Source of the DNA: an uncultured Bacteroidales bacterium
GTDB taxonomy: Bacteria > Bacteroidota > Bacteroidia > Bacteroidales > WCHB1-69
Length of the DNA: 64,000 nucleotides
Direction of reading: 5' to 3'
Assembly: GCA_905233625.1 (NCBI GenBank)
Contig: CAJOFJ010000005.1
Location: forward strand, 126,119-190,118
In this document: positions 18,583 through 45,440 of the stretch, in pieces
Numbering within the stretch: the stretch's first letter is position 1
How the letters are laid out: every line of letters begins with the position of its first letter
Notes under the pieces: model-generated
What the model was told of the DNA's origin: nothing
The model's database searches: none
What the model saw: the letters and a program-made list of their open reading frames with translations, nothing else
Position numbers and translations under genes: made by a program

Positions 18583-19947
18583 ATGAATAAAAGGCATTTC
18601 AGAAAAGCATTGGGTTTAGCAGCAATCGTGACAATTCTGCTGTGTTTTACAGCCAGTTATGCGCAAAAAACAACAAAAACTTTCCTGGAGCGCTACGATC
18701 TTTCCACCACGGTGATCAACCCTGACACCGCACCGACCGACGGCATCTATTCCTGGTGGACGGAGTCCACAAAAAAAGAATGGGACGATTATGGAAACGA
18801 GCCTAAGGCTGACGAATGGCTGTATCGTCCTGAACCTTTGGGCTTCAGAGGAGACAATTTCCAACGCTTTTACATCCATTTCGACACAGTATATAAAGTA
18901 TCGCCCACCGTGTACCAAGTGGAAGCACGCTCACGTTGCAAAGATGAGTATTGCCACATCAAAGGGCAGATTATCATTGATTCCGTAGTGACTTACTACT
19001 CCAACGAGAACAGCGAGACTAACTGGTATGATGATTTTCTCGAGAATGTTACAGATTACGGGGATATCCGTGCCCATTACGAGATGAAGGCCTATATAAA
19101 TGCCAAAACGATCGCCCGCCTGTTCGGTCACTCAAGCTATTCATATCTAGTGCATAACGACAGCATCTATTATGATGCCATGGAGATTGTTGCCGACGGA
19201 TATGAGAACAACCAATACAGCGGCAAATGGGTTTATCTTGCCACGAATGACACGCTCACCTGCAATTGGGGTGATTTCAGAATTCCAGAATCCCGTGATT
19301 TGGATGGTGGCTGTGGAGAGTTTATACCCATTGAAGAATACTATGATTTTGGCTGGAAGCCCTACATTGATATAGAAAGGCATGCTTGGATAGATGATCC
19401 TGCCCATGAGTATTATATGTTTTTATACCATATTGATGAGGATTGGTGGAATTTCACTGACATGGAATCTCCTAAAAAAGCCCCTCACGTACCTGGGCAC
19501 TATAGCTATGCGCACAGCTTTCACTATGACCTGCATGGCAACCATCTTGAAGTGTATGAGACCGGCACGATGGATTTTCAAGCCAACGGCACGGCCATCG
19601 ACTCGGCCCGTCAGGTGTATGTGGCGACACTCAAAGATGGAGGCTCTGCTACGTATGTGTTCAACTATGTGAGTCCCAGCCGCTGGCGCTTAAACAAGAA
19701 AGACTTTTACTTCTCCGGTATCAAAGAGACTTTCCGTATGGAAGTAATAAAAACCTCCCTCAAGGGTTGCAACTCAAGCCAAGCTGATGAACTAGCAAAA
19801 CAAATTATCAAAGCCGTTGGCGGCAGCATCGACTACGAGTACAAGTTCCAGCTCGACACGCTAACCTCGCATAAGCTGCAATGGAGCTTCACCTACCGCG
19901 ATGGACATACTGACACTTGGGAATTCTATCGCATCAGCGCTGAATAG
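18583..19947 (+). CDS. Unknown exported protein
   Basis: Not recognised. A clear signal peptide (LGLAAIVTILLCFTASYAQK) is followed by a 430-residue mature part rich in Tyr, Trp and Asp, suggesting beta structure. Near residue 305, HVPGHYSYAHSFHYDLHGNH begins a segment ending in LQWSFTYRDGHTDTWEFYR. The layout resembles the C-terminal module of the divergent neighbour at 17195. It has no lipobox and no sorting domain. Probably monocistronic, with its own -7 box. About 100 bp with no recognisable element follow before the convergent barrel gene. Confidence 0.6.
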   Translation: MNKRHFRKALGLAAIVTILLCFTASYAQKTTKTFLERYDLSTTVINPDTAPTDGIYSWWTESTKKEWDDYGNEPKADEWLYRPEPLGFRGDNFQRFYIHFDTVYKVSPTVYQVEARSRCKDEYCHIKGQIIIDSVVTYYSNENSETNWYDDFLENVTDYGDIRAHYEMKAYINAKTIARLFGHSSYSYLVHNDSIYYDAMEIVADGYENNQYSGKWVYLATNDTLTCNWGDFRIPESRDLDGGCGEFIPIEEYYDFGWKPYIDIERHAWIDDPAHEYYMFLYHIDEDWWNFTDMESPKKAPHVPGHYSYAHSFHYDLHGNHLEVYETGTMDFQANGTAIDSARQVYVATLKDGGSATYVFNYVSPSRWRLNKKDFYFSGIKETFRMEVIKTSLKGCNSSQADELAKQIIKAVGGSIDYEYKFQLDTLTSHKLQWSFTYRDGHTDTWEFYRISAE

Positions 19948-43794: not shown

Positions 43795-44415
43795 ATGCCT
43801 ATAATGTTATTAGACACGCTGAAAGACTATAAGGTTTATCTCTGCTCCAAATCACCCCGCCGGCAGGAGCTGCTTGCTGGCATGGGTATTGACTTTGAGT
43901 ACCTGCCCACCAATGTCGAGGAGAAGCATCCCGACACGGACAATCCCGTGGAGGTGGCTGAGTACCTGTCGAAGCTCAAGTTGTCGCCTATCTGTCTGGA
44001 GAAATATCCGAAGAACACCATCTTCATTGCCTGCGACACCATTGTGGTATTAGGGAATGAAATTCTGGAGAAGCCCAAAGACGAGGCTGAGGCGGTGAAG
44101 ATGCTGCGGGAACTTTCGGGCAAAAGCCATACTGTCATCAGCGGGCTCACGGTAGCCACTCCGGAGCGCAGCCTCACCTCGCATCGCAAAAGTGCAGTGA
44201 GGTTCGGCCAGCTCAGCGACGAGGAGATTGACTATTATGTGCGGCAGTACCAGCCATTGGACAAGGCCGGGGCCTACGGTGTGCAGGAATGGATCGGCTA
44301 CATTGGCATCGAAGCCCTCGAAGGCTCGTTTTACAATGTCATGGGGCTACCCACCAAATTGTTGTGGGAGATGCTGGGGGAAATCACACGATATACTGGA
44401 AATTCGGCGAACTAG
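43795..44415 (+). CDS. maf: Maf family nucleotide pyrophosphatase
   Basis: Nucleoside triphosphate pyrophosphatase of the Maf family (house-cleaning of non-canonical or dTTP/UTP nucleotides). LCSKSPRRQELLAGMGIDF is the family opening. FIACDTIVVLGNEILEKP carries the catalytic Asp, SGKSHTVISGL is the next block, and KAGAYGVQEWIGYIGIEALEGSFYNVMGLP is the conserved C-terminal part. 206 residues, normal. ATG 43795 or the in-frame ATG 43804 may be the start. It lies 51 bp after the glycogen gene. Confidence 0.92.
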   Translation: MPIMLLDTLKDYKVYLCSKSPRRQELLAGMGIDFEYLPTNVEEKHPDTDNPVEVAEYLSKLKLSPICLEKYPKNTIFIACDTIVVLGNEILEKPKDEAEAVKMLRELSGKSHTVISGLTVATPERSLTSHRKSAVRFGQLSDEEIDYYVRQYQPLDKAGAYGVQEWIGYIGIEALEGSFYNVMGLPTKLLWEMLGEITRYTGNSAN

Positions 44416-44463
44416 GGGCGCGTACCTACGGTACGCCATGATATCTTTCCCGTACATCACGAT
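44412..44463. repeat. REP-like hairpin left of the transposase unit
   Basis: GCGTACC-tac-GGTACGC immediately after the maf stop. It is the same hairpin family as at 44644 and 20791. Confidence 0.55.
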
Positions 44464-45367
44464 GCTATGCGGGGATTGTGGCTACGCCACAATCTAATTT
44501 ATTATTCGATGCAGAAAGTGCGTATGCGGGGGTTGTGGCTATGCCACAAATTTGTTCTTCCGGCCATATCGCAATTGCTGCAATACATTATGCGGCAAAG
44601 CCGCAACCCAAACATAGATAACGATGGTTCTCGGAATATTACGGCGTGCCGTAGGTACGCGACCATTATTCAATCGGATAGAAAATATATTTTTCGTCAA
44701 ATTCAACCCCTTCACGAACCAACAATTGTTTATATTCATCAACAAATTTTTTATTGGCATGATGTTTTTCCTGATTTCTGATATAATTTGCAATAACATC
44801 AATATCTTTGGGACCACAGGAAAATGCACCATATCCCGACTGCCAGCCAAATCTGCGCACGGATAATTTGTTTTCATTAATCCACCGTGAACTATCCCCT
44901 TTGACTAAACGCATTAAATCCGATAATGGTATTGTTGTGTTGTGCATGCTAAGCAAAATATGCAAATGATCCGGTATTCCACCTATAGCTATCACATTAT
45001 TTCCCTTATTAGAAATTATCGTGGAAATGTAAGAATATAATTTATCCTTCCATAGGTTAGATATTAATGAATCTCTGTTTTTTACAGTAAATACTGTATG
45101 AATGTAAATGCGAGCAAAGGTGTTGGGTGTTGTTTTTTTCTCATTCATAGCTTATATTTTTTATTAATATTAAATTTATAACGATATATTATACAAATTA
45201 TTATTTAATAAACAAAAAAATCACAATATTACTGGGATTGTCCCTCTGGGACAAATTTGGCTGGTGCGATATATCACGCTATGCGGGGATTGTGGCTACG
45301 CCACAATCTAATTTATTATTCGATGCAGAAAGTGCGTATGCGAGGGTTGTGGCTACGCCACAGATTT
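44464..45367. mobile_element. RAYT transposase gene between 90-bp direct repeats of paired REPs
   Basis: A nearly identical 90-bp segment occurs at 44464-44553 and 45278-45367. Each copy has two hairpins of the GATTGTGGC-tac-GCCACAATC type, preceded by TATGCGGGG and separated by CTAATTTATTATTCGATGCAG. The transposase gene (minus strand) lies between them. This matches the REPtron or BIME arrangement known for RAYT genes, though here the flanks are long near-perfect repeats. Confidence 0.75.
44666..45148 (-). CDS. REP-associated tyrosine transposase (RAYT, Y1 family)
   Basis: Single-strand DNA transposase of the IS200/REP-associated Y1 family, 160 residues. The HUH metal motif is GGIPDHLHILLSM near residue 62, and the catalytic tyrosine is probably in DVIANYIRNQEKHH near residue 126. 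RFGWQSGYGAFSCGPKD lies between, as in IS200 TnpA. RYAT-type proteins recognise and process REP hairpins. The gene is intact, from ATG 45148 to the stop at 44666, and is flanked by its presumed REP substrates. It could instead be a minimal IS200 copy, but the repeats argue for RAYT. Confidence 0.85.
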   Translation of the reverse strand: MNEKKTTPNTFARIYIHTVFTVKNRDSLISNLWKDKLYSYISTIISNKGNNVIAIGGIPDHLHILLSMHNTTIPLSDLMRLVKGDSSRWINENKLSVRRFGWQSGYGAFSCGPKDIDVIANYIRNQEKHHANKKFVDEYKQLLVREGVEFDEKYIFYPIE

Positions 45368-45390
45368 ATTCGGCATTCAATGAGGAAGGA

Positions 45391-45440
45391 GTGGTATGCG
45401 GAGGGGGTGGTATACGGAGGATGTGGCTATGCCACATTAA
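45391..45440. repeat. Additional degenerate REP copies
   Basis: TATGCGGAGGGGGTGG, then TACGGAGGATGTGGC-tat-GCCACAT: two more, diverged copies of the REP unit next to the right flank. Confidence 0.6.

Follow-up and report, generated by a model that had tools for sequence, protein, structure and literature searches.

Class 2 of the Y1 enzymes (RAYT/TnpAREP) has been defined by the motif Y---NP, and subclass 1.2, known from Cyanobacteria and Bacteroidetes, has been listed as lacking REP, as having a low copy number and as generally without flanking secondary structures, a trait that is descriptive and not defining (Quentin et al. 2018, PMC6006769); the REP search in that study sought structures footed by GT[AG]G. 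Under the name TIRYT/TIRtron, Y1 genes with palindromic repeats of a non-GTAG type on their flanks have also been described (PMC3733652), there as long terminal inverted repeats around RAYT-like proteins, whereas the locus reported here has short tagged hairpins in direct arrays. Our search of the literature yielded no description of hairpins accompanying subclass 1.2.

The locus lies in a window of 64,000 nucleotides (the whole stretch of DNA analysed) from a rumen-type Bacteroidales genome, G000, in which a tnpA gene is surrounded by tagged DNA hairpins (Table 1). It resembles RAYT/TnpAREP systems in that a Y1 enzyme is encoded once on the chromosome, next to hairpins of which related copies are dispersed in intergenic DNA; the hairpins carry one conserved 5' tag, and each gene has a hairpin family of its own. 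Unlike in those systems, both the motif and the model score place its protein in class 1, its CTAY tag is placed about 10 nt before the stem while RAYT REPs carry GT[AG]G at the stem foot, and its repeats, in contrast to REP/BIME, are mostly direct and about 50-60 nt apart. With IS200/IS605 TnpA (IS608, ISDra2) it shares the fold, the HUH motif with a single Tyr, the match to the IS200 HMM and a hairpin with a sequence-specific 5' flank, but it differs in the absence of near-identical copies, in the many hairpins per flank, in the dispersed hairpins and in a C-terminal HH...F..EY extension of the protein.

The tnpA gene and its protein family

The open reading frame is intact, encodes 160 aa and matches Pfam Y1_Tnp at 4e-26. 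The NCBIfam IS200 model scored the protein at 69 bits, above its cut-off of 55, whereas REP_Tyr_transpos, the RAYT model, gave 36.4 bits, below its cut-off of 80; in a wider alignment all 55 of 55 members matched both models, with best E-values of 3e-23 for IS200 vs. 5e-11 for RAYT. The catalytic motif Y---NP of class 2 is not present in TnpA, nor in the 75 intact homologues from 80 subclass-1.2 loci, every one of which has Y..xQ..HH. An AlphaFold2 model (mean pLDDT 91) had ISDra2 and IS608 TnpA as its closest PDB folds, with the RAYT-REP complex 4er8 ranking 30th. Because of these model scores, the motif and the fold, we classify the predicted protein as an IS200-type TnpA of subclass 1.2, with RAYT membership excluded by sequence; it has the Y---Q--HH and WQ motifs, the length of ~150 aa, the low copy number and the Bacteroidetes host (Bacteroidetes or Cyanobacteria) given for that subclass. 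The first-pass annotation had read the locus as a RAYT with paired REPs, of which the Y1 transposase with cognate REP-like hairpins is retained, while the RAYT assignment gives way to subclass 1.2 on motif and models.

IS200/IS605 elements are expected in multiple near-identical copies per genome, but G000 carries one copy of this tnpA, its other two Y1 genes being just 32-34% identical. These two (L005 and L006, C3:14666-15118 and 18773-19207) are subclass-1.2 paralogues ~4 kb apart, each inside composite repeats, one family of which has hairpins CGTG[CT]C[TTC]G[GA]CACG, frequently with GTAG right at the foot, and is common in G006 too. The gene is single copy, of low copy number and under purifying selection, with dN/dS of ~0.05 between G000 and either G008 or G005, the synonymous distance of the G000-G005 pair being near saturation. 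Its G+C content is 33% vs. 51-53% in the genes either side. Carriage on plasmids or phages was considered and rejected as essentially nil: among 72,556 plasmid records there were two near-full-length relatives of at least 37% identity, both presumably from Bacteroidota as judged by genera, and the phage records searched held none at that identity and length. Bacteroidota-type tnpA genes also occur in MAGs labelled Methylococcaceae and Planctomycetaceae (L063, L105, L132), reflecting either transfer or binning error; the L132 gene has a stop inside the matched stretch.

Tagged hairpins at the locus

An intact Y1/HUH gene bracketed by near-identical modules with two hairpins each, and diverged copies outside, had been proposed from a first inspection, and all of these elements were found, with modules of 94 bp. 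The modules are direct repeats with starts 814 nt apart, and each contains a pair of hairpins at a distance of 57 nt, namely a 21-nt hairpin, GATTGTGGC[TAC]GCCACAATC, followed by TTGTGGC[TAT]GCCACAA or a close variant. All five tagged hairpins of the window lie in one orientation, and the hairpin arrays of the relative G008 are likewise direct; because of this directness in both places we dropped the earlier comparison with BIMEs, in which REPs alternate. The tag CTATG/GTATG begins 9 nt before the 21-nt hairpin, CTATG sitting exactly at -18..-14 from the loop, and the window hairpins lack the GT[AG]G that marks the hairpin's 5' foot in class 2 REPs. As folded single-stranded DNA, the 94-bp module exceeded its shuffles in stability by 4.3 sd, and the 21-mer did so by 7.4 sd. 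With up to 3 mismatches allowed, TTGTGGCNNNGCCACAA matched the window 10 times vs. 3.9 expected, with every exact match at the tnpA locus. A search of the hairpin DNA against Rfam returned nothing up to E 1.

Of the remaining structures, GCGTACC[TAC]GGTACGC has an imperfect inverted counterpart at 44636-44671, just beyond the tnpA stop, and similar sequence is also found 3' of the G008 orthologue; the stem type of the hairpin upstream of the tnpA start is common across Bacteroidota.

Table 1. Coordinates of the tnpA gene, its modules and hairpins in the window, and of tagged hairpins elsewhere in G000
Feature	Position	Strand	Remarks
tnpA-like gene	44666..45148	-	HUH motif DHLH, WQ, catalytic Y122 in YIRNQEKHH
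Left 94-bp module, two tagged hairpins	44464..44557	+	
Right 94-bp module, two tagged hairpins	45278..45371	+	direct orientation; 96% identical to left module
Tag CTATGCGGG + hairpin GATTGTGGC[TAC]GCCACAATC	44465..44494	+	CTA at -18 from loop
Tag GTATGCGGGG + hairpin TTGTGGC[TAT]GCCACAA	44522..44549	+	
Tag CTATGCGGG + hairpin GATTGTGGC[TAC]GCCACAATC	45279..45308	+	
Tag GTATGCGAGGG + hairpin TGTGGC[TAC]GCCACA	45336..45362	+	
GTATACGGAGG + hairpin ATGTGGC[TAT]GCCACAT	45410..45437	+	fifth, diverged copy; hairpin 45421-45437
Hairpin GCGTACC[TAC]GGTACGC	44420..44436		strand not assigned
Diverged hairpin TGCGGC[AAA]GCCGCA	44591..44605		strand not assigned
Hairpin TTGTCCC[TCT]GGGACAA	45238..45254		strand not assigned; upstream of tnpA start
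CTATGCGGGGATTGTGGCTACGCCACAATC			locus version of the tagged hairpin DNA
Off-locus tagged hairpins, G000	C2:39013, C2:39067		54 bp apart
Off-locus tagged hairpins, G000	C13:107936, C1:108186, C1:135801, C7:62979, C34:15432, C39:7816		

Dispersal in the genome and its relatives

The exact hairpin GTGGCTAYGCCAC is present in 5 copies in the 2.71 Mb of G000, all at the tnpA locus, and its 1-mismatch matches genome-wide are no more numerous than those of a reversed-pattern control; a dispersed REP family with the exact stem was thus rejected. The first-pass annotation had held that its reading would fall if the hairpin were absent elsewhere in the genome, and as G000 has no copy of the exact stem outside the locus, this is, read literally, what the count gave. 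Only a family of a different kind, TGCGGTNNNACCGCA, is dispersed; it shares the 5' tag TATGCGNGG with the locus hairpins and has a different stem. It numbers 49 copies in G008, 41 in G005, 24 in G002 and 8 in G000, as against at most 2 in each of the 56 other relatives searched and 0-1 with the reversed-pattern control. The four rich genomes are exactly those with a tnpA orthologue of at least 78% identity (Fisher 2e-6; 4 vs. 5 among the nine genomes of the genus, p 0.008), so that the co-occurrence of hairpin and gene anticipated by the annotation holds in spirit. Within the genus, tagged hairpins are dispersed just in the members keeping tnpA, and as in class 2 the cognate hairpins lie in intergenic DNA, here as a same-tag family with variant stem.

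The eight tagged copies of G000 away from the locus all lie between long ORFs. Four tag matches without a hairpin (L207, L208, L210, L211) are probably fortuitous; three fall inside long ORFs. In G008, 6 of 23 hairpins fall within ORFs of at least 150 aa vs. 83% coverage by such ORFs, in a simple test that left overlapping antisense ORFs in. Sampled G008 DNA showed a 5' flank (TATG..GCGG) nearly invariant over 20 copies and a 3' flank without conservation, TATG standing at one fixed place before the hairpin in all copies with both flanks. De novo hairpin counts covered ~17% of the genome, sampled as stretches, and genome-wide counts were made by pattern search. The G005 and G002 orthologues (78-79% identity) are flanked by arrays with the stem TGCGGT/ACCGCA, whose tag CTATGCG is identical to the locus tag and equally distant from the hairpin.

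In G000 the locus hairpins have the stem GTGGC and the dispersed ones GCGGT; the present enzyme may therefore no longer serve the dispersed hairpins, and this mismatch suggests that specificity has turned over or that the hairpin population is ageing. A separate family was seen in G008 (C69, L171:17135-17671), where ten tandem 58-bp units of CTATTGATATTAA-ACCCTC[TTC]GAGGGT adjoin another tnpA (46% identity); G000 has a single copy of it at C34 (L212).

Recurrence across Bacteroidota

Using a closer 8-sequence alignment, we gathered 80 named subclass-1.2 loci in Bacteroidota and surveyed them for hairpins with a stem of at least 6 and a loop of 3-4. Hairpin density was 3.5-5.9/kb within 150 bp of tnpA vs. 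0.2-0.4/kb at 2-4 kb, and in noncoding DNA alone it was 3.84/kb within 400 bp vs. 0.81/kb beyond 1 kb (~5-fold), with 67 tagged hairpins within 400 bp vs. 8 beyond 1 kb. In contrast to the REP-less description of the subclass, short hairpins, most of them CTAY-tagged, were seen within 500 bp of the gene at 68 of the 80 loci, and the other 12 show none of this kind there. With the hairpins oriented by their loop sequences, the 5' flank gave the consensus TTTTCTACCNATATT, in which CTA occupies -18..-16 with up to 0.9 bit; the phylum consensus tag is CTACC at -18..-14. The 3' flank gave no consensus. CTAY was present in 51/63 loci vs. 6-7/63 in two controls, and adjacent hairpins were spaced 50-59 nt in about half of the cases.

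A strict phylum-wide scan showed an only moderate association: tnpA is present in 15 of the 20 genomes that have a tagged GTCCC hairpin vs. 78 of the 178 that lack one (p 0.009), the other five hairpin-positive genomes having no subclass-1.2 gene at E 1e-20. The strict pattern has few copies per genome, several of them far from any tnpA. One genome, G115 (L214-L218), has nine CTACC-tagged hairpins and no subclass-1.2 gene at E 1e-20; either this REP population is orphaned, or the gene was missed, or the enzyme is of another type.

Genomic location of tnpA

In G000 and G008 the gene occupies the maf-rSAM site (DNA identities of 86% for tnpA, 81% for maf and 76% for rSAM); it is missing there in G003 and G006, while G005 and G002 carry it at a different place. 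The annotation had looked to empty sites, and the unit is indeed missing at maf-rSAM in G003 and G006, but no exact insertion junction can be drawn from G003 because its intergenic sequence there is unrelated to that of G000. None of the maf-rSAM junctions compared reveals how tnpA arrived or left. Movement or excision of a 0.9-kb unit through the direct repeats, also proposed in the annotation, left no trace: a single-copy 94-bp scar was not found at the maf-rSAM site of G001, G002, G003 or G006, and the stretches of G000 that were sampled contain no further 94-bp unit; we therefore rejected excision by this route. At that site G006 and G001 (L037, L038) hold different material, with GTGTC/GACAC-stem hairpins and an apparent small protein gene.

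Maf identity to G000 is 94, 94 and 92% for G006, G001 and G003, which have neither a close orthologue nor the hairpins, vs. 85 and 84% for G008 and G002, which have both. The nearest relatives of G000 by neighboring-gene identity are thus among the genomes with at most 2 copies of TGCGGTNNNACCGCA, and by these sequence comparisons the distribution of orthologue and hairpins does not follow the neighboring genes Maf and rSAM.

Discussion

Together, the protein family, the flanking hairpins, the tag on the 5' side only, the preferred spacing, the restriction of dispersed tagged hairpins to genus members with the gene, purifying selection and the low copy number make it probable, in our judgment, that the locus is a REP-transposase-like ('REPtron'-like) system whose enzyme is an IS200-type TnpA (subclass 1.2). 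We surmise that this HUH nuclease would bind short hairpins with a 3-4-nt loop on single-stranded DNA, recognizing a tag confined to the 5' flank, with CTAY placed at -18 from the loop (within this genus, CTATGCG), and that it would act on the tag-bearing strand. It may then copy or move hairpin units as single-stranded DNA to intergenic positions, for the most part in the form of 50-60-nt pairs or of tandem arrays, while tnpA itself stays single copy under purifying selection and would not spread as an IS. The left-end hairpin of IS608 has its TTAC site upstream, and by analogy with it a putative cut site may lie near CTAY. The simplest account would be a domesticated single-strand nuclease that recognizes its cognate tagged hairpins and has spread them, in the way proposed for RAYTs and their REPs.

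An ordinary IS200/IS605 insertion sequence, whose left and right ends would be the hairpins and whose gene would be mobile, is in our view unlikely. It would fit the score above the IS200 cut-off, the ISDra2/IS608-like fold, the AT-rich gene and the changing occupancy of the maf-rSAM site, but an element of this kind is difficult to reconcile with one copy per genome beside two distant Y1 genes, with several hairpins per flank instead of one per end, with dozens of hairpin copies lacking the gene, with a dN/dS of 0.05, or with the two plasmid and zero phage relatives. We give still less weight to the idea that the hairpins serve transcription or mRNA, as terminators or stabilisers, or are intergenic DNA prone to forming structure, with the transposase as passenger; their intergenic position, in G008 mostly outside long ORFs, would agree with it, but the 3' side has no T-run, the sequence-conserved tag is on the 5' side only, hairpins are enriched beside tnpA over other noncoding DNA, the stem is genome-specific under a conserved tag, copy counts track the gene, and Rfam gives no match.

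Shared ancestry alone, with gene and hairpins inherited in one sub-clade of the genus and no functional dependence between them, seems to us very improbable. Only nine genus genomes are available and both features are inherited, as this explanation would have it, but Maf and rSAM identities place G000 nearer to genomes without the close orthologue than to G008 or G002, and gene and hairpins are found together again, with other stems, across Bacteroidota.

Beyond the REPtron-like reading of this locus, we give an even chance to the broader proposal that the IS200 lineage has evolved a REP system of its own, separate from GTAG-REP/RAYT, in which a Bacteroidota-wide domesticated subclass-1.2 TnpA keeps CTAY-tagged hairpins spaced 50-60 nt apart whose stems diverge with the enzyme. 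If true, this would provide a context for an enzyme subclass reported without REPs and without IS properties, and would add an IS200-type enzyme, one found widely in Bacteroidota, to those associated with REP-type repeats. Comparison with GTAG/RAYT would then reveal a shared logic, in which 5' tag, hairpin and domesticated HUH nuclease recur but tag and spacing differ, and the origin and spread of REPs would become testable in two separate lineages.
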